Below, piece after piece: positions 42,824 through 52,727 of a stretch of 54,023 nucleotides of DNA; positions within the stretch are counted from its first letter, which is position 1, and each line of letters opens with the position of its first letter. Position numbers and translations under genes: made by a program. Under the pieces are notes generated by a model. That model was not told the origin of the DNA, ran no database searches, and saw only the letters and a list, made by a program, of their open reading frames with translations. The DNA comes from Spirochaetales bacterium (GTDB taxonomy: Bacteria > Spirochaetota > Spirochaetia > DAHUYW01): assembly GCA_027314665.1 (NCBI GenBank), contig DAHVAK010000159.1, positions 1 to 54,023 of the forward strand. The letters are read 5' to 3'.

Positions 42824-42891
42824 GCAGCCGATAGTAGCTCAAGATGGAGCTCGCTTTCTACTGCGTAAGCTCCCGGAGGGAATCCTCTTCA

Positions 42892-44307
42892 GTGGCAGTC
42901 AAGCTCTTCAACACCGATGGACGGGCAATTCAGGAATTTGTTCCCATTACTCAAGGCAAGGTTGGGATGTACACCTGCGGACCGACGGTCTACAACTACG
43001 CCCACATCGGCAATCTTCGGACCTACCTGTTCGAGGATCTCCTGCGTCGCACCCTCGAGCATGATGGCTACAGCGTCACCCACGTCATGAACGTCACCGA
43101 CATCGGCCATCTCACCGACGACGCCGATGCCGGGGAAGACAAGATGGTGAAGAGCGCGCGGGAGAAAGGGATGTCGGTGTGGGATCTCGCCGCGTTCTAT
43201 ACAAAGGCCTTCTTTGAGGATCTCGAGCGCCTCAACATCGAGCAGCCGACGATCGTTTGCCGCGCCACCGATCACATCCCGGAGATGATCGCCCTCGTCG
43301 AAAGGCTCAAGGAGCGCGGGCTCACCTACGAGGCGGGGGGCAACGTCTACTTCGACATATCCCGCTTCCCGGACTACGGCAGGATGGCCCTCCTCGACCG
43401 GCAGGAGTTGCAGTCCGGCGCGAGGATCGAGATCGACCCGCAGAAGCGGAACCCCCGTGATTTCGTCCTGTGGTTCACCACTTCGAAGTTCGAGCGCCAG
43501 GCGATGCTCTGGGACAGCCCCTGGGGGAGGGGCTATCCCGGCTGGCACCTGGAATGCAGCGCGATGAGCATGAAGTATCTCGGGGAGCATATCGATATCC
43601 ACTGCGGAGGGGTCGACCACGTCCCGGTCCATCACACCAACGAGATCGCTCAATCGGAAGGGGCAACCGGCGCTCACTGGGTCAATTACTGGCTCCACGG
43701 CGAGTTCCTTCTGCTCAACAAGGAGCGGATGGCCAAGTCGAGCGGCGAGTTCCTCACGCTTTCCGCCCTCATCGATCGCGGCTACGATCCATTGGACTAC
43801 CGCTACTTCTGCCTTGGAAGCCATTACCGAACCCAGCTTCAATCCTCCTGGGAGGCCCTCGATGGGGCCCGCGCGGCCCGTCTGAACCTCATGGAACGGA
43901 TCGGGCGGCTCGCCGAGGAGGCTTCTCCCTCCGATGGGGCGCCGATCGGTCCCGCGGCTGCCGCCTTCCGAGAGGAGTTCTTCGAGAGCCTGGCGAACGA
44001 TCTCGGGATGCCCAAGGCAATGGCGGTCCTCTGGGCCCTGCTCAAGGCCGATGAGGTAGCGCCCCTCGAGCGGCTGACCGTGGTTCTTGAGATGGACCAG
44101 GTCCTCGGACTTGGTCTCGCGCAGACGGCTGCGCGGCGCGACGAGCTCGAGAGCGAGCTCCTGGCGCTTGTCCGCTCGCGCGAGGAAGCGCGGGCGGGGA
44201 GAGATTGGGCGCGCGCGGACGAGATCCGGCGACAGCTGGCCGAGCGGGGGATCACGGTCGAGGACACCCCGAAGGGCTCGCGCTGGAGCCGGGCTCACCG
44301 CATGTAA
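42892..44307 (+). CDS. cysS: Cysteinyl-tRNA synthetase
   Basis: A 471-residue class Ia synthetase. [20 protein letters not shown] holds a zinc Cys and the HIGH-type motif [23 protein letters not shown], the zinc site near WHLECSAMS and [15 protein letters not shown], and the KMSKS-type motif RMAKSSG follow. The C-terminal helical domain ends with [30 protein letters not shown] prefer GTG 42892, which gives the usual N-terminus (AVKLFNT) and has GGAGG 12 bases upstream; an in-frame ATG at 42844 would add 16 residues. It is followed 27 bp later by the ECF sigma gene. Confidence 0.94.
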
Positions 44308-44334: not shown

Positions 44335-44862
44335 ATGAACAGTGACGAAGGCGGGGCAGAGACTTTTGAGAAGGTCTATCAGACGGTATACCCGATCCTC
44401 ATTCGAGTGAGTTACCATATTACGGGTGATTTGGCCATCGCAGAAGACCTCTGTCAGGAAGCGTTCATCAGGTATTATCAGCGTGAGACCCCGTTCCCTA
44501 GCCTGGATCAGGCCAAGTACTGGCTTATCCGGGTCGTCAAGAACCTTGCGTTCAACCACGAAAAGCGTAGGGGTCGGGAAAGACGGGCGCATGATCGCGT
44601 TCTCAAGGAACCACAGCGGGAGGTGGAGTCCGGGGAAACGGAAGTCATCAAGAAAGAAACCTATGAAATTGTGAAGAGTGCGCTCTATAAGCTTCCCTAC
44701 AAGCTGCGGACGGTTCTCGTCTTGAGGGAGTACGGTGGATTGAACTACAAAGAGATAGCTGCTATTTTGAAAATTACTGAGGGAAACGTTAAGGTACGCG
44801 TCTTTCGAGCGCGGGAGCAGCTCAGTACGCTCATAGATGAGGAGGAAGTGTATGTGTCCTAA
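44335..44862 (+). CDS. ECF-type RNA polymerase sigma factor
   Basis: A 175-residue group IV sigma factor. Region 2 spans about residues 10-75 (YHITGDLAIAEDLCQEAFIRYYQ is the 2.1-2.2 core-binding helix; YWLIRVVKNLAFNHEKRR is 2.4). Region 4 spans about 115-170 (LYKLPYKLRTVLVLREYGGLNYKEIAAILKITEGNVKVRVFRAREQL) with the DNA-binding helix-turn-helix. Base composition is visibly lower in GC than its neighbours. The anti-sigma gene overlaps its end. By position this corresponds to the rpoE-like gene after cysS in Treponema. Probable role: extracytoplasmic stress response, with the downstream secreted proteins as partners or targets. Confidence 0.93.
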   Translation: MNSDEGGAETFEKVYQTVYPILIRVSYHITGDLAIAEDLCQEAFIRYYQRETPFPSLDQAKYWLIRVVKNLAFNHEKRRGRERRAHDRVLKEPQREVESGETEVIKKETYEIVKSALYKLPYKLRTVLVLREYGGLNYKEIAAILKITEGNVKVRVFRAREQLSTLIDEEEVYVS

Positions 44863-45403
44863 TCATCACCTTCTTTCTGCATATTACGATGAGGAGCTTG
44901 ATCCTGAGCAGGAAGAGCGAATCGTAGAGCATCTTTCGAGCTGCACTGCCTGCAGAGAGAGGCTTGCCTCCTTCGCTTCCTTGAGCGACGAGCTTATGAG
45001 CCTGCCGGTGCCGGATCTCGAGGGGAGCCAGGCAAGGAGCTGGAAGGCGATTCAGGCGGCCCGGAGGGTCAGGGTCGTCACCATTTGGCAGAGACGCCTT
45101 TCGGTGCCGATCCCCGTAGTCGCCGCCGCGGCTGCCGCCATCGTGCTGGCCCTGGGCTTCAGCAGCTACGTGGCGCTGTCCGGGCTCGGGCGCGGCGAAT
45201 CCGCTCCAATGCTCTCCGCCGCGCTTCCGCGCGAGGGGGCTCCGATGAACATCGAGGTCAGCAACATCAACGACATCATCAACTATCTCAACTCCCGGGA
45301 GCTGGGGGCCAACGTAACAATGCAGCTTCCCAAGAGCCTCGATCGGATGTCGATGGGACAACCTGAGCTGCTTCGCGCCGCGGACTACAAACGAGTGCAG
45401 TAG
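44852..45403 (+). CDS. Membrane anti-sigma factor with zinc-binding (ZAS) domain
   Basis: A 183-residue protein. The cytoplasmic N-terminus has the anti-sigma zinc motif HxxxCxxC as His27, Cys31 and Cys34 in EHLSSCTACRERL. One transmembrane segment follows at about residues 88-110 (PIPVVAAAAAAIVLALGFSSYVAL), leaving about 70 residues outside, with ISNINDIINYLNSRE-like sequence. ATG 44852 has AGGAGG six bases upstream, inside the sigma gene; an alternative ATG at 44837 overlaps that site. It should hold the upstream sigma factor at the membrane until released by proteolysis or redox change. The next gene's GTG overlaps its TAG by one base. Confidence 0.9.
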   Translation: MCPNHHLLSAYYDEELDPEQEERIVEHLSSCTACRERLASFASLSDELMSLPVPDLEGSQARSWKAIQAARRVRVVTIWQRRLSVPIPVVAAAAAAIVLALGFSSYVALSGLGRGESAPMLSAALPREGAPMNIEVSNINDIINYLNSRELGANVTMQLPKSLDRMSMGQPELLRAADYKRVQ

Positions 45404-45921
45404 TGAGCAAGGTCTTACCCTCGGTACTGCTGCTGCTCTTGAGCCATCTGCCCTTTGGATATGCGGATGGCCCTACCAACCGGCATGATCCCCTGCAGTA
45501 CCTTAAGGACGAGGCCCTGGCGGTGAACATCGTCGCTCGAATCATCGAGCCCAACCATGTCACCGTCTGGCGGATGGATAGCACCAAGATTACGATCTCC
45601 GGGCGCGCAGTCGAGGTTCGCCTCGAAGGCGACAACATCCTCGTGCTCGCCCACCTTATTCCCTACCTCAACAGCGACAACACCATCCTCCTCGTCGCCC
45701 TCGGGCAGGTGTGGGCGCCGGCCGCCGACAAGAAAGGCTTTCGATACTACAGCACGATGAAGAGCCTGCCGGTCACGCCGGGAGAGAAGGTCATCTTTTT
45801 TCCCTTCGGAATGGCAGTCGATCAGAAGGCAAATGTCTACAATCTCGAGCTAGAGATCCAGGTTACGCCCTACGCGGAGCTCAAGAAGGGCGGCAAGACC
45901 ACCCAATCCCCGAGCCATTGA
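45403..45921 (+). CDS. Secreted protein of unknown function in the sigma operon
   Basis: A 172-residue protein I cannot assign to a family. The first 22 residues (SKVLPSVLLLLLSHLPFGYA) are a signal peptide without a lipobox. The mature part is beta-rich: VNIVARIIEPNHVTVWRMDSTKITISGRAVEVRLEGDNILVLAHLIPYL, then LPVTPGEKVIFFPFG and NVYNLELEIQVTPY. Start GTG 45403 overlaps the anti-sigma stop. Its tight packing after the anti-sigma factor suggests an extracytoplasmic sensor or effector of the same response. The next gene starts within 7 bp. Confidence 0.75.
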   Translation: MSKVLPSVLLLLLSHLPFGYADGPTNRHDPLQYLKDEALAVNIVARIIEPNHVTVWRMDSTKITISGRAVEVRLEGDNILVLAHLIPYLNSDNTILLVALGQVWAPAADKKGFRYYSTMKSLPVTPGEKVIFFPFGMAVDQKANVYNLELEIQVTPYAELKKGGKTTQSPSH

Positions 45922-45927
45922 GTGTCC

Positions 45928-47631
45928 ATGAACAGCAGGAAGCAGCTTCTCTCTCGATTGCGAGGGATCGTTCGACACCAAGCCTTTATCCCGACCACGA
46001 TCTTCGTCGGCCTCGTCGCAATCCTCGTCGTCAGTGCCACTCTTACCGCCCACCCCCCGGTCATCGAGAGCGTCACTCCCCAGGTCGGCTATCCGGGGCT
46101 GGTGCTGCTCATCAGAGGCAACCACTTCGGCCCCTCGAGGGGAAGCTCCGAGGTGAGCTTTGCGGGGGACCGACCGTCAACCTCGGCCTATCTGGAATGG
46201 ACAAACCGTCGAATCAGCGTCCGCATTCCGGAGAATGCGACCTCCGGCTTCGTCTTTGTGACGAAGGCCAACGAACGCAGCAACGGCGTCCTCTTCACGA
46301 ACAAGAGCAGCCTCCCGGTCATCGTCTCGGCGGGTCCCAAACCGGGGCTCCCCTTCATCCAGAGCATCACCCCCGCGAGCGGAACCGTCGGCACGCTCCT
46401 GACCATCAAGGGGCAGAACTTCGGCTCCGTGCGCGGTCAGGGCAAGGTCTACTTCACGCCCACCTCTGTCGCGGATCAAGGGCTGCCAGCCGCCCAGATC
46501 CCGAACTCGCCGAACGCCTCGCCCGTCGCCGATCGCTTCAGCGGCTGTGGGTGCGACTTTAACTACGTGAACTGGACGGACCACGAAATCAACATGTACG
46601 TCCCCGACGGCGCCAGCTCCGGAAACGTGACGGTCGCCACCGATCGGGGCACGAGCAACTCCGCCTACTTCGAAGTCGCGGTGCAGGTGGGGACGAAGCT
46701 CTACAAGGATCGCCGTGGGTATCAGATCGAATACGGGATGCAGATCTCGAAGGTGATCGCGGATCCCGACGGCACCATCGACGTATGGATGCCCGCCCTC
46801 TCCGAAGATCTCTCTCAGCGCGATATCCAGAGGGTCTTGAGCCCGGAGCCCCTCTGGGACGACTTCCGCGGGGTGATGCGCTATCTCTTCGACAACCTCA
46901 AGCCCGACACCACCTATTCTATCGACATCACCTACTATTTCGATCGCTACGCCGTCGAGACGCGGATCGACCCCTCCAAGGTCTCTGGCGCCTATGACCG
47001 CGACCGAGAGCTCTATCGGGTCTACACGAGCAGCGATGCGCTCGTCCCCTCCAACGATCCCATCATCGAGTCGACTGCTCGCTCCGTCGTGGGCAGCGAG
47101 AAGAACCCCTATCTGATGGCCCTCGCCATCTACGACTACCTGATAGACAAGCTGCACTACGATGCGAGCGCGACGAGCGAAGATCCGGTCGAGAGCCTCA
47201 CGAGCGGCAACGCCGACGCCTACGACTATGCCCTGCTCTTTACCGCCCTCGCGCGCAGCGTCGGGGTGCCCACTCGTCCGGTCGCCGGCTACATCGTCTA
47301 CGGGGACAAGCAGACGAGCCGCTTCTATTGGGCCGAGTTCTATGTCAAGGATTTCGGCTGGGTCCCGGTGGACCCGGTGCTTGGATCGGGGGTGAAGTTC
47401 GGGGATTTCCCGAGCGTTCCGGATCCGAAAAGCTACTATTTTGGGGACATCGACAACCAGCATATCGCCTTCTCGCGCGGGGTCATTCAGCTCGAGCCTC
47501 TCGATCCGCACGGCAAGACCGTACGCAAGAAGCGGATGTTCTCGCTTCAAACCATCCATGAAGAGGCCTCCTCGGGGGTGTCCAGCTACACCTCTTTCTG
47601 GCAAGACGCAAAGATCGTCGATTGGTGGTAG
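45928..47631 (+). CDS. Membrane-anchored IPT/TIG-domain protein with transglutaminase-like domain lacking catalytic residues
   Basis: A 567-residue protein. A single N-terminal anchor (about 20-42, FIPTTIFVGLVAILVVSATL) places the rest outside the cytoplasm. Two IPT/TIG immunoglobulin-like domains follow (PVIESVTPQVGYPGLVLLIRG... from about 47; PFIQSITPASGTVGTLLTIKG... from about 145). From about 330 comes a transglutaminase-like region ending in GVPTRPVAGY and FGWVPVDPVLG. The catalytic Cys position is Ala431 (AYDYA instead of CxDYA) and the His position is Phe466 (FYWAEFY instead of HAWxExY); only the Asp of VDP remains. GTG 45922 is an alternative start. Likely a binding or scaffold protein of the sigma operon. 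Confidence 0.85.
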   Translation: MNSRKQLLSRLRGIVRHQAFIPTTIFVGLVAILVVSATLTAHPPVIESVTPQVGYPGLVLLIRGNHFGPSRGSSEVSFAGDRPSTSAYLEWTNRRISVRIPENATSGFVFVTKANERSNGVLFTNKSSLPVIVSAGPKPGLPFIQSITPASGTVGTLLTIKGQNFGSVRGQGKVYFTPTSVADQGLPAAQIPNSPNASPVADRFSGCGCDFNYVNWTDHEINMYVPDGASSGNVTVATDRGTSNSAYFEVAVQVGTKLYKDRRGYQIEYGMQISKVIADPDGTIDVWMPALSEDLSQRDIQRVLSPEPLWDDFRGVMRYLFDNLKPDTTYSIDITYYFDRYAVETRIDPSKVSGAYDRDRELYRVYTSSDALVPSNDPIIESTARSVVGSEKNPYLMALAIYDYLIDKLHYDASATSEDPVESLTSGNADAYDYALLFTALARSVGVPTRPVAGYIVYGDKQTSRFYWAEFYVKDFGWVPVDPVLGSGVKFGDFPSVPDPKSYYFGDIDNQHIAFSRGVIQLEPLDPHGKTVRKKRMFSLQTIHEEASSGVSSYTSFWQDAKIVDWW

Positions 47632-47742: not shown

Positions 47743-47772
47743 TTGACAAATGATAACCCAGGCCCATATACT
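47743..47772 (+). promoter_or_regulatory. Strong promoter of the cNMP-binding gene
   Basis: A consensus TTGACA (47743-47748), 18 bp spacer, TATACT (47767-47772, 5 of 6). Predicted start near 47779, 30 nt before ATG 47809. This is the best promoter in the window and separates this gene from the sigma operon. Confidence 0.65.
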
Positions 47773-47808
47773 GTGCCGAAAAGGAAGCGAGAGCTGGTAA
47801 CAGGCAAC

Positions 47809-49044
47809 ATGAACAATCCTCTGCAGCTGTCACTGGTAAACTTCAAGAAGGGGTCCTATATCATCGTCGAGGGCAAGCAGAAGGCGGACTACTTCTTCAT
47901 TATCCGTGGCGGCAACGTGCGGATCAGTAAAGAGGTGGAGGTTGTCGAGGAAGAGGGGGGCAATCTGCTTGCGCCGGGAGATTTCTTCGGGGTCGTCTCG
48001 ACGATGTCATCCCACAGCCACATCGAGACCGCCCAGGCGGTGACCGACGTCTCGCTCATCTCCGTGCACCGCGATCAGTACGGATTGCTCATCGAAAAAA
48101 ACGCCCCGGTAGCCATGAAGATCATCCAGCAGTTCTCGAAGAAGATGCGCTACCTTGACGAAGCCCTTACTCGGATCACCCTGAAGAGCACCGGCGGCGA
48201 GGATCCTTCGCACCTGTTCAAGGTCGCCGAGTACTATGCTCGCCAGAGCCAATACAATCTTGCCTACTACGCCTACTACCAGTACGTCAAGAACAGCCCA
48301 AAGGGGGAGAACATCACCCTTGCGCGCGAGCGGATGGCGAAGATCCAACCCTACGCCAAGGTCGTCTACCTCGACGCGGGAACGGAGGATTTTACCCGCT
48401 CCTACCCGAAGGACACCATGATCTTCAGCGAGAACCAGCCGGGTCAGGAGCTGTATATCATCCAGAAAGGCGCCGTCAAGATCGCTAAGATCGTCAACGA
48501 CAACGAGGTGCTCCTGGCGCTCCTGAAGCCGGGGGATATCTTCGGGGAAATGTCGATCCTCGAGGACAAACCTCGCTCCGCCTCGGCGATCGCCTACGAG
48601 GACTCGGTGCTCCTTGCCGTCAACAAGGTGAACTTCAGCCGCATGGTGTCTTCCCAGCCCCAAATGATCACACGCCTCACCCAGCTGCTCTCGGAGCGGA
48701 TCTGGTTCATCTACAAGCAGATTGCCAACACCCAGCTCACCAATCCCCTCGGAAGGCTCTACGACGCCTTGCTGATCCAGCTGGAGCGGTCGAAGATCTC
48801 CCTCGGCTCGAGCGACTCCTACACCTTTGATTTCGGTCCGAAGGAGCTCATCAACCTCGTCGGCCTCCCGAAAAACGAGGGCAACGGCGTGATCCGCAGG
48901 CTCTTTGAGAATCCAAAGGTGAAGATCATCGACAACAAGATTCACGTCACCGACGTTCAAGAGGTCGAAAAGCAGGCGGGCTACTTCCGCAAGATGGAAA
49001 AGATCGAGAAGGCCCGCAGACAGGGATCGCTCAAGACCTCCTAA
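47809..49044 (+). CDS. Two-domain cyclic-nucleotide-binding protein with CRP-like winged helix
   Basis: A 411-residue cytoplasmic protein. CNB domain 1 (about 5-120) has a degenerate phosphate-binding cassette: FGVVSTMSSHSHIETAQA lacks the Glu and Arg. A TPR-like helical linker follows (FKVAEYYARQSQYNLAYYAYYQYVKNSP). CNB domain 2 (about 200-310) has an intact cassette FGEMSILEDKPRSASA with Glu and Arg. The C-terminus (about 325-395) resembles a CRP-type winged helix (DFGPKELINLVGLPKNEGNGVIRRL). It probably senses cAMP or a similar nucleotide and may act on DNA. The upstream in-frame TTG at 47743 is part of the -35, so ATG 47809 is preferred. A similar gene lies next to murB in Treponema, from memory. 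Confidence 0.88.
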   Translation: MNNPLQLSLVNFKKGSYIIVEGKQKADYFFIIRGGNVRISKEVEVVEEEGGNLLAPGDFFGVVSTMSSHSHIETAQAVTDVSLISVHRDQYGLLIEKNAPVAMKIIQQFSKKMRYLDEALTRITLKSTGGEDPSHLFKVAEYYARQSQYNLAYYAYYQYVKNSPKGENITLARERMAKIQPYAKVVYLDAGTEDFTRSYPKDTMIFSENQPGQELYIIQKGAVKIAKIVNDNEVLLALLKPGDIFGEMSILEDKPRSASAIAYEDSVLLAVNKVNFSRMVSSQPQMITRLTQLLSERIWFIYKQIANTQLTNPLGRLYDALLIQLERSKISLGSSDSYTFDFGPKELINLVGLPKNEGNGVIRRLFENPKVKIIDNKIHVTDVQEVEKQAGYFRKMEKIEKARRQGSLKTS

Positions 49045-49213: not shown

Positions 49214-49966
49214 CTACCTTCCCCCGCCGACCTGCATCGCCGGGAAGAAGCATTTGCCCACCGATTGGATCGTCAGGGTAGGGCTCGTGTTCGTTATCAT
49301 CACGAGCATCTGAAAGCCCGAAGGGTCGGCAAGAGGCGCGACGAGGCGGCCGTCGGGAGAGAGCTCCTCGAGCAGGGCCCGCGGGATTTCGCCGACGGCG
49401 CCGTGCACGAGAATCTTGGTGAAGGGAGCATTCTTCGCGAAGGAGCCCTCCGCAGAGCCCGGGCTGCTGGTAATGTTCGCGATCCCGAGCGAAGCGAAGA
49501 TCTGAGCGTTCCGCCTCGCTTCGCGCGGGTCCAGGTCGATGACCGATACCGAAGCGACGAGGCGACTGTAGAGGGCTGCCGTGTAGCCGGTGTCTCGACC
49601 GTAGATGAGGAGGGAATCCGTCGGCTTCAGCGCGAGCGCCTCCTCGATCCGCACGAGATCGGAGGGGGAGGGGAGGGCCTGGCCGCCTCCGAGCGGAAGG
49701 CTCGAGTCCTCGTAGGCGAGATTGCGCAGGTAGTCCGGTACGAAGCGCTCGCGAGGGATGGAGGAAAGCGCGTCGCCGAGGCGCTGGCTGATGTTGAAGG
49801 TGGCGGCAAGCCGATCGACGAGGGCCCTGCGGCGATCGGCAAGGCTGTCGCTCGCCGTGAGCTTCGGAAAGCTGAACGTAGGACCCGATGGAAGGCTCGA
49901 TTGCGCCTCGAGCGGCAGGAGCGCAACCAGGGTGTACAGCGCGAGCGCGCAGGCGCGTCGAATCAT
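49214..49966 (-). CDS. Exported, degenerate protein-L-isoaspartate O-methyltransferase-like protein
   Basis: A 250-residue protein with signal peptide IRRACALALYTLVALLPLEAQ. The body aligns with PCMT: IPRERFVPDYLRNLAYEDSSLPLGGGQALPSPSDLVRIEEAL corresponds to the substrate-binding start. The SAM motif I, normally EIGTGSGYxAA, reads IYGRDTGYTAA, and GHGQTIS reads GGGQALP. The acidic ribose-binding position is kept in VSVIDLDPRE. SAM is not available outside the cytoplasm, so together these point to a non-catalytic secreted protein. ATG 49966 is preferred over 49972 from promoter spacing. Confidence 0.8.
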   Translation of the reverse strand: MIRRACALALYTLVALLPLEAQSSLPSGPTFSFPKLTASDSLADRRRALVDRLAATFNISQRLGDALSSIPRERFVPDYLRNLAYEDSSLPLGGGQALPSPSDLVRIEEALALKPTDSLLIYGRDTGYTAALYSRLVASVSVIDLDPREARRNAQIFASLGIANITSSPGSAEGSFAKNAPFTKILVHGAVGEIPRALLEELSPDGRLVAPLADPSGFQMLVMITNTSPTLTIQSVGKCFFPAMQVGGGR

Positions 49967-49974
49967 CACCATTC

Positions 49975-50084: not shown

Positions 50085-52727
50085 ATGAGCGACACCACAC
50101 TTCCCAAGGCATACGATCCGAAGAGCTTCGAAGACCGCATTTACTCCTACTGGCTCGATCAGCGCGTCTTTTCCCCCAGCAAGAGCGGCGCCGAGCGCTT
50201 CGTCGTCGTCATCCCTCCGCCGAATGTCACCGGCGTGCTCCATCTCGGCCATGGGCTGAACAACTCCGTACAGGACATCCTCGTTCGGTACAATCGCATG
50301 CAGGGGAAGAAGACCCTCTGGGTTCCGGGCACGGACCATGCGGGGATCGCCACGCAGAACGTCGTCGATCGAAGGCTTCGGGAGCACGGCAGCTCGCGCC
50401 AGAAGCTCGGTCGGGCGAAGTTCGTCGAGGAGACCTGGAAGGTCGCCAACGAGCACCGCGCCATCATCGTGAAACAGCTCCAAAAGATCGGCGCCTCCTG
50501 CGATTGGGAGCGCGAGCGCTTCACCCTCGATGAAGGCCTCTCGCGCGCGGTGCGGGAGGTCTTCGTGAGCCTCTACGAGCGAGGGCTGATCTACCGGGGC
50601 AACTACCTCGTCAATTGGTGCCCTTCCTGCGGGACCGCCCTTTCCGACGAGGAGGTCGAGCACCGCGAGGTGCACGGCAAGATGTATCACTACCGCTATC
50701 CCTTCGCCGACGGGGAGGGGGGTATCGAGATCGCGACGACCCGACCCGAGACGATGCTCGGCGATACGGCGGTGGCGGTTCATCCCGACGACGAGCGCTA
50801 TCGATTGCTCGTCGGGCGCAGGCTCAGGCTCCCGCTCACCGGCCGGGAGATTCCCATCGTCGCCGATTCCTATGTCGATCCAACCTTCGGAAGCGGCGCG
50901 GTGAAGGTCACCCCGGCCCACGATCCGAACGACTGGGAGATCGGCAATCGACACGACCTTGCACGGATCAACATCCTGAACCCCGAGGGGACCCTGAACG
51001 CGAACGTTCCGGCCAAGTACCGGGGGATGACGGTCAAGGCGGCGCGAAAGGCGGTCGTCGAAGACCTGAAGGAGGCCGGTCTCTTCCTGCGCGAAGAGGA
51101 TCACCTCCACCAGGTCGGCCACTGCTACCGCTGCAGCACGGTCATCGAGCCCTTTCTGTCCACCCAGTGGTTCGTCCGCATGCGCTCGATGGCCGACAAG
51201 GCCCTCGCGGCCTGGCAGCGCGGCGAGCTTCGTTTCTTTCCGGTGCACTGGGAGAACACCTACGCCCATTGGCTGAATGGGATCCGCGACTGGTGCATCT
51301 CACGGCAGCTGTGGTGGGGCCACCGCATCCCCGTCTGGTACTGCGATTCCTGCGGCGAGATGATCGTTTCGCGCACCGATCCGACCGGCTGCCCGAAATG
51401 CGGAGGGAGCGTGCGACAGGACGAGGACGTACTCGATACCTGGTTCTCTTCGTGGCTGTGGCCCTTCTCGACCCTGGGCTGGCCCGAGAAGAGCGAGGAC
51501 CTTGCCGAGTTCTTCCCGACCACCGCCCTCGTGACCGCCTACGACATCATCTTCTTCTGGGTGTCGCGGATGATCATGGCGAGCCTCGAGTTCACCGGTG
51601 AGGTTCCTTTTCGGGACATTTACATCACCGGGCTTGTCCGCGACATTCAGGGGCGGAAGATGTCGAAGTCGCTGGGCAACGGATTGGATCCGCTCGAGAT
51701 CGTCGATGAGTTCGGCGCCGACGCCTTGAAGTTCACGCTGGCCTTCCTTTCGGTGCAGGGTCAGGACATCCTCGTCGACAAGGAGAGCTTCAAGCTCGGC
51801 TCGAAGTTCGCGAACAAGATCTGGAATGCTGCGCGCTATCTGCTCATGAACCTCGAGGGGTGCACGATCCGTCCGATCGAATCGCTCGCCCTCACCGACA
51901 TCGACCGCTGGATTCTCCATCGCCTCAACGAGGCGGTGCGCGCAGTGGAGCGTGCGCTCGAGGTCTACAAGGTCAACGACGCGGCCCAAGCCTGCTACGA
52001 GTTCTTCTGGAGCGACTTCTGCGACTGGTACCTCGAGGCCTCCAAGCTCTCGCTGTACTCAGGCAACTCTGCGGAAAAGGAGCGCTCGATCTCGCTTCTG
52101 CTCCATCTGCTCGAGGAGGGCCTGAAGCTCATGCACCCCTTCCTCTCCTTCATCACCGAGGAGATCTACCAGCGGCTTCCGGGAAACCGGGGCAGCATCG
52201 CGACGGCAGGCTATCCAAAGGTCGATCCACGGCGGGACTCCCCCGAGGCCGCGGCTGACTTCGAGGCATTGAAGGAGATGATCCGCGCGGTGCGCACCCT
52301 GCGAAGCGAGTTCACCGTGCCTCCCGACCGCAAGATCCGGATTCACGTCCGTCTGGAGCGGGGCTTCCGCTCGGCGGACTTCTTCAAGGGTCACCGCGAT
52401 CTCATCGTCCAGCTAGTGGGCAGCGAGAACCTCGTGATGTCCGAGGAGCGCCCCGATTCCTCGGGAAGCATCCCGGTTGCGGGGATCGGCTTCGAGACCT
52501 TCGTCTACGTTCGCGACGTGATCGACGTTTCGAAGGAAATCGCCAAGCTGAAGAAGGAGAGCCTGAAGCTCGCCGATCTCGCTGCCGCGACCGAGAAGAA
52601 GCTCGGCAATGCGGGCTTCGTGCAGAATGCCCCGCAGGCGGTTGTGGACAAGGAGCGCTCGAAGTTCGCCGAGTTCAAGGAGCGGTTGGCCAAGATCGCG
52701 GAGTACGTGCGGGATCTCAGCGATTGA
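50085..52727 (+). CDS. valS: Valyl-tRNA synthetase
   Basis: An 880-residue class Ia synthetase. VIPPPNVTGVLHLGHGLNN contains the HIGH-type motif HLGH; GTDHAGIATQ is the ValRS signature. The editing (CP1) domain follows with IATTRPETMLGDTAVAVHPDD and GSGAVKVTPAHDPND. WCISRQLWWGHRIPVW and the KMSKS motif (GRKMSKSLGN) complete the catalytic core. After the anticodon domain, a C-terminal coiled coil of about 65 residues (SKEIAKLKKESLKLADLAAATEKKL...) binds tRNA. ATG 50085 has GAGGAG seven bases upstream; the frame is open far upstream but overlaps the PCMT-like gene. ileS follows after 60 bp. Confidence 0.97.
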   Translation: MSDTTLPKAYDPKSFEDRIYSYWLDQRVFSPSKSGAERFVVVIPPPNVTGVLHLGHGLNNSVQDILVRYNRMQGKKTLWVPGTDHAGIATQNVVDRRLREHGSSRQKLGRAKFVEETWKVANEHRAIIVKQLQKIGASCDWERERFTLDEGLSRAVREVFVSLYERGLIYRGNYLVNWCPSCGTALSDEEVEHREVHGKMYHYRYPFADGEGGIEIATTRPETMLGDTAVAVHPDDERYRLLVGRRLRLPLTGREIPIVADSYVDPTFGSGAVKVTPAHDPNDWEIGNRHDLARINILNPEGTLNANVPAKYRGMTVKAARKAVVEDLKEAGLFLREEDHLHQVGHCYRCSTVIEPFLSTQWFVRMRSMADKALAAWQRGELRFFPVHWENTYAHWLNGIRDWCISRQLWWGHRIPVWYCDSCGEMIVSRTDPTGCPKCGGSVRQDEDVLDTWFSSWLWPFSTLGWPEKSEDLAEFFPTTALVTAYDIIFFWVSRMIMASLEFTGEVPFRDIYITGLVRDIQGRKMSKSLGNGLDPLEIVDEFGADALKFTLAFLSVQGQDILVDKESFKLGSKFANKIWNAARYLLMNLEGCTIRPIESLALTDIDRWILHRLNEAVRAVERALEVYKVNDAAQACYEFFWSDFCDWYLEASKLSLYSGNSAEKERSISLLLHLLEEGLKLMHPFLSFITEEIYQRLPGNRGSIATAGYPKVDPRRDSPEAAADFEALKEMIRAVRTLRSEFTVPPDRKIRIHVRLERGFRSADFFKGHRDLIVQLVGSENLVMSEERPDSSGSIPVAGIGFETFVYVRDVIDVSKEIAKLKKESLKLADLAAATEKKLGNAGFVQNAPQAVVDKERSKFAEFKERLAKIAEYVRDLSD

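Follow-up and report, generated by a model that had tools for sequence, protein, structure and literature searches.

An export-predicted, apparently inactive PCMT-like protein at a conserved site in many Spirochaetia

In the PIMT/PCMT repair methyltransferases, isoaspartate is held by Thr60 and Ser62, and SAM/SAH is bound by Asp134 and Gly135 (PMC11522691, in excerpt). Bacterial proteins that keep the fold without these residues are already known. The CI-PIMT of Paracoccus denitrificans was judged inactive partly from the loss of Thr60/Ser62 and Asp134/Gly135, and a role in stabilising complex I has been proposed for it (PMC11522691, in excerpt). RPA2580 of Rhodopseudomonas palustris is annotated as a PIMT, lacks the substrate residues and is reported to be inactive (excerpts of PMC11522691, citing Yin and Harwood 2019); cells deleted for it survive for a shorter time when growth is arrested (PMC5705917, in excerpt), so a pseudo-PIMT can matter to its host. 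The human protein PCMTD1 also has the PCMT fold, with no isoaspartate methylation detected in one study (PMC11514484, in excerpt), and is associated with cullin-RING ligase proteins, according to a reference title in the same source and the title of PDB entry 9oma.

The protein described here, F0, is encoded in a 54,023-nucleotide stretch of DNA from a Spirochaetales bacterium, which was analysed as a whole and is called the window below. The gene lies on the minus strand (49214..49966, stop codon included) and encodes 250 aa of what we take to be an exported PCMT-like pseudoenzyme. The first-pass annotation had placed it correctly, with the ATG at 49966 and the TAG at 49214-49216; an alternative in-frame ATG is found two codons upstream at 49972. 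The PCMT-fold domain covers residues 41-248 (49223..49846, minus strand) according to both Pfam and a structural model. The Pfam PCMT family (PF01135) matches with 93.6 bits against a gathering score of 20.3, while the three NCBIfam PIMT equivalog cut-offs are missed (125 vs 188, 101 vs 159.05 and 97.3 vs 282 bits). The AlphaFold2 model, for which three relatives were added to the window protein, has a pLDDT of 78 and a pTM of 0.76, with residues 1-36 being unreliable (pLDDT below 50). Its best matches among solved structures are 2yxe (Z 28.2), 8qby chain t (Z 28.1) and 3lbf (Z 28.0), Foldseek likewise returns solved PIMTs as best matches, and PCMTD1 (9oma) is matched at Z 21.9. By profile and predicted structure, F0 is thus a PCMT-fold protein. 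The residues that define the repair enzymes are largely replaced in the alignment. The isoaspartate-binding Thr60 and Ser62 correspond to Ala97 and Pro99, within ALPSP (residues 97-101; 49664..49678, minus strand) in place of the canonical TISQP. Motif I, canonically EIGTGSGY, reads IYGRDTGY (residues 121-128; 49583..49606, minus strand), with Ile121 replacing the motif I Glu. Its GRDTGY (residues 123-128) is present as first reported, but the accompanying statement that most glycines of the motif are lost is incorrect: the first and third are kept and the middle one alone is changed, to Asp. Motif Post I retains its acid, Asp144, in the dipeptide ID (residues 143-144; 49535..49540, minus strand), and the SAM-binding Asp134-Gly135 pair is replaced by Ser171-Ala172 (49451..49456, minus strand). 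The changes at Ile121, Ala97, Pro99 and Ser171-Ala172 are the heavier ones and come in addition to those first listed. With IYGRDTG and Ser171-Ala172, F0 departs from the pattern [DE]-x-G-x-G-x-G plus later Asp-Gly, and it combines the PCMT fold with loss of both Thr60/Ser62 and Asp134/Gly135, which is the make-up of a pseudo-PIMT of the CI-PIMT kind.

A search for other exported PCMT-like proteins, proposed in the first-pass annotation, returned a family. The searches covered 60 relatives, 394 genomes of the class and the neighbouring regions, and F0-type proteins were found in at least 35 of the 394 genomes, a lower bound because the most divergent member (G050) was recognised via its position. 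The 35 genomes span ten family-level codes (f1, f6, f11, f12, f23, f25, f26, f30, f32 and f33) and include three publicly named members, Spirochaetes bacterium B32_G16, Spirochaetes bacterium Dive96_bin4.94 and Spirochaetia bacterium JOPF006; these three loci came from a second scan of named genomes, after one with a single sequence had given no match. Of 149 genomes sampled across the phylum, 44 gave a match at E 1e-40 or better, and 19 loci from outside the class were inspected; all 19 have TIS-P and G-x-G-x-G, and none is an F0 member. For comparison within the class we used 29 canonical PCMTs, a convenience set out of the same searches. The 35 F0 proteins are separated from these 29 by a single branch with support of 100/100, in a tree whose bootstrap was not fully settled and in which several rows have long branches. 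When the motif columns were removed, the branch kept an SH-aLRT support of 98. The members nearest to the canonical PCMTs are those of genomes G053 and G093, the latter still with G-A-G-S-G-Y, and these two are the only members outside the conserved locus described below. Their position in the tree and their absence from the locus fit a stepwise loss, the direction of which is not proven.

The residue pattern of the window protein recurs across the family, as counted in an alignment of the 35 members and the 29 canonical PCMTs. Thr60 is present in 1/35 (a poorly aligned row) vs 29/29, Ser62 in 0/35 (Pro in 29) vs 29/29, and the motif I Glu in 0/35 vs 29/29. The first motif I Gly is found in all members of both sets, the middle one in 3/35 (Asn in 22, Asp in 2) vs 29/29, and the third in 25/35 vs 28/29. 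The Post I acid, which holds the ribose of AdoMet, is likewise kept throughout (35/35, Glu in 28 and Asp in 7; 29/29), while Asp134 remains in 5/35 vs 28/29 and Gly135 in 2/35 vs 29/29. Since the pattern is common to 35 related genes and set off from 29 ordinary PCMTs, the losses in F0 are more than chance. We should note that the 35 members were first chosen partly by eye on the motifs that were later counted, which makes the counts circular to that extent; the independent supports are therefore the shared locus (33/35) and the tree built without the motif columns. In two genomes with the conserved locus, G025 and G045 (loci L037 and L055), F0 keeps G-x-G-x-G while TIS-P and the motif I acid are gone, so the losses are not all coupled.

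These residues bear directly on what F0 may bind. It had been suggested that the protein perhaps binds aged proteins, and a role as an exported binder of isoaspartate-containing proteins would suit both the fold, which is that of an isoaspartate-binding enzyme, and the export-like N-terminus. The two residues that hold isoaspartate are, however, those replaced by Ala97 and Pro99 and almost wholly missing from the family, and we consider this function disfavoured and quite unlikely, although F0 may bind damaged proteins by another surface. A different proposal is that the pocket has been retuned to a nucleoside-type ligand different from SAM, with the exported protein serving as an extracytoplasmic sensor of that ligand. 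The invariant Post I acid and first motif I Gly argue for it, as does the replacement of the middle Gly mostly by Asn and not by random residues; the acid after strand 2 is an AdoMet-binding position (PMC11514484, in excerpt). Against this, the inactive complex I PIMT, which shows no cofactor density (PMC11522691, in excerpt), has a Glu at the same place in its sequence, so the acid may be structural, and we regard a retuned pocket as unlikely.

The N-terminus of F0, MIRRACALALYTLVALLPLEAQ, contains two Arg and a hydrophobic stretch, followed by LEA|Q, and resembles a signal peptide over approximately residues 1-22 (49901..49966, minus strand) by a hydrophobicity measure. The maximum 10-residue Kyte-Doolittle mean is 2.48, and no lipobox was seen in this N-terminus. 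At a cut-off of 2.2, which was our own choice, signal-like N-termini are found in 33 of 34 family members whose start could be read; the exception, G001, reaches 2.10, and one further member runs off its contig. The "clean signal peptide" first described is thus upheld as a signal-like N-terminus, with the word "clean" resting on hydrophobicity and homologues. By the same measure, 14 of the 29 canonical PCMT rows of the class (L001 among them) have export-like N-termini together with an intact SAM motif. As export-like PCMTs are common in the class, the export signal alone is not the novelty of F0. The genome of the window itself also carries three paralogues on other contigs (L003, L004 and L005 on C201, C144 and C42), in which a zinc-ribbon-like N-terminal stretch and a hydrophobic segment precede a PCMT domain in which TIS-P and GTGSG are intact; judged from this layout, they are probably membrane-anchored PCMTs facing outwards. 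That F0 is itself an active SAM-dependent methyltransferase with an atypical motif I would fit the existence of export-like PCMTs with an intact motif, and also its profile score well above the Pfam cut-off and its retention of the Post I acid and of two motif I glycines out of three. Such activity is very unlikely in view of the loss of the motif I acid, of both isoaspartate-binding residues and of the second SAM-binding pair, and no supply of SAM outside the cytoplasm is known.

The same locus was found in 33 of the 35 genomes, with the gene order cysS, ECF sigma factor, zf-HC2 anti-sigma factor, F7, transglutaminase-fold protein, cNMP-binding protein, F0 (on the opposite strand) and valS. 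In the window, the plus-strand neighbourhood starts with cysS (42844..44307), followed by the genes for an ECF-type sigma factor (44335..44862), a putative anti-sigma factor with a zf-HC2 domain (44837..45403), F7 (45403..45921) and a TIG and transglutaminase-fold protein (45922..47631). A gene for a protein with two cyclic-nucleotide-binding domains (47743..49044, scanned from 47797) is convergent with F0, and valS (50085..52727) stands head to head with it. F7 is a small protein with a signal-like N-terminus and no Pfam family, and its position next to the anti-sigma gene is conserved; its model is beta-rich but of low confidence (pLDDT 55, pTM 0.44) and was not used. In the small g12 genomes F0 faces the transglutaminase-fold gene directly, with the cNMP gene and valS outside the stretches covered, and the view of the locus is incomplete where contigs end early (e.g., G011, G054 and G141). 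Five genomes (G005, G002, G042, G060 and G022) have the site without F0, the cNMP gene being directly followed by valS.

At E 1e-25, 34 of the 35 F0 genomes have the transglutaminase-fold gene (G037 has a fragmentary copy), against 178 of the 359 other genomes, a difference with a Fisher p of 4e-9 that is uncorrected for kinship. Forty sequences were readable, 29 from F0 genomes and 11 from genomes in which F0 was not found, with the G037 fragment excluded. None of them has the catalytic Cys (Ser in 29, Ala in 11), whereas His is kept in 39/40 and Asp in 40/40, with the Cys and His positions assigned by eye from the transglutaminase motif. The window copy has Ala for Cys and is the sole one without the His, carrying Phe. 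The solved-structure search gave no more than a weak match to a transglutaminase-like chain. Judged by its residues, this neighbour is a second inactive-looking enzyme beside F0.

Because F0 lies on the opposite strand, it is not co-transcribed with the sigma operon. Three ECF-type promoter patterns were sought upstream of F0 and occurred in 0, 1 and 4 of 34 regions, against shuffled means of 0.41, 1.53 and 3.96; a sigma-70-like pattern occurred in 25/34, against 23.3 in shuffles. A promoter link between F0 and the neighbouring sigma factor is thus unsupported, with no excess over shuffles. Among 28 genomes, the divergence of F0 tracks that of the anti-sigma factor (r 0.75), the sigma factor (0.69) and the transglutaminase-fold protein (0.64) more closely than that of cysS (0.35), in a mirror-tree comparison with a weak control, as cysS is the only one and the permutation ignores phylogeny. 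A minor possibility is that F0 is a spirochaete extracytoplasmic sensor, which would read a nucleoside-type ligand or a sign of envelope damage and relay it to the ECF sigma/anti-sigma module next door, together with the Cys-less transglutaminase-fold protein as a second inactive-looking enzyme. Its SAM site would then have kept the nucleoside half, represented by the invariant first Gly and Post I acid, and lost the methionine and substrate half.

The gene appears to be maintained. Over the last 205 codons, dN/dS was determined for 12 pairs in all; nine close pairs have values of 0.06-0.27, which shows purifying selection on F0, the window gives 0.51 against G001, and two saturated pairs were not computable. 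That F0 is a decaying gene on its way out might be read from the raised value against G001, the long branches in the tree and the five sites without F0, but the low dN/dS of closer pairs, the residues conserved across the family and the synteny of 33/35 members make this extremely unlikely. We reject a pseudogene in view of the open frames, the synteny and the dN/dS values. Ordinary PCMTs accompany F0 in 19 of the 35 genomes. The search at 130 bits or more gave no further PCMT place in 15 others, each of them at least 92% complete; this cut-off was our choice, and the 15 include G011 with a second place of 106.8 bits, while G134, with a partial copy, is counted in neither group. Given these 15 genomes without an ordinary PCMT at the cut-off, F0 seems to be independent of ordinary isoaspartate repair.

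We favour, with a rough probability of 0.6, the reading that F0 is an exported, inactive pseudo-PIMT at a fixed site in many Spirochaetia that works by binding, possibly with a partner in the envelope module. Its first two elements, that F0 is exported and that it is not a PIMT, are very probable. From sequence and model we infer a location outside the cytoplasm, no methylation and action by binding, the last because the residues for substrate and methyl donor are gone. The constancy of the gene neighbourhood makes the envelope module a candidate for the partner; that it is a component encoded next door, namely the anti-sigma factor, F7 or the Cys-less transglutaminase-fold protein, is put forward tentatively. 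The PCMT fold of F0 could serve there as a stabilising or sensing subunit, like the inactive PIMT in the complex I of Paracoccus. With the same changes at the same chromosomal place in many relatives, F0 looks kept and re-purposed and not broken. The initial idea that a PCMT fold with an impaired SAM site has been reused outside the cell agrees with the predicted fold, the residues, the export-like N-termini, the synteny and the low dN/dS.

Our literature search on isoaspartyl methyltransferases, periplasm and spirochaetes, of incomplete coverage, found no paper on exported or spirochaetal pseudo-PIMTs. Bacterial pseudo-PIMTs are known from Paracoccus complex I; what appears to be new is the syntenic spirochaete family, predicted to be exported, to which F0 belongs. 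PCMTD1 still binds SAM and differs from F0 in being eukaryotic and intracellular. The PIMT/PCMT enzymes of PF01135 share the fold and a full-length alignment with F0 (Z 28.2 to 2yxe and 28.0 to 3lbf); F0 differs in lacking the substrate and SAM-binding residues, in its export-like N-terminus and in falling below the NCBIfam PIMT cut-offs, and for PF01135 matches in spirochaetes the fold alone is insufficient for annotation as repair enzymes. RPA2580 is alphaproteobacterial, and the excerpts of PMC11522691 and PMC5705917 mention neither an exported form nor a link to a sigma locus. CI-PIMT (8qby chain t) resembles F0 in its fold (Z 28.1) and in the loss of both Thr60/Ser62 and Asp134/Gly135, but its own motif I is still G-C-G-Y-G, it is bound to the hydrophilic domain of complex I, and no signal peptide is mentioned in the excerpts of PMC11522691. 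Neither the N-terminus nor the locus of F0 hints at a place in respiratory complex I. Among proteins with the fold of this repair methyltransferase, the inactive ones we encountered are few and intracellular. The F0 clade, by contrast, is predicted to be exported, stays next to a sigma/anti-sigma operon in the majority of ten family-level groups and is retained in genomes in which we detected no ordinary PCMT. If true, it would represent a natural experiment in which a damage-repair fold has taken on a role in binding or sensing outside the cytoplasm.
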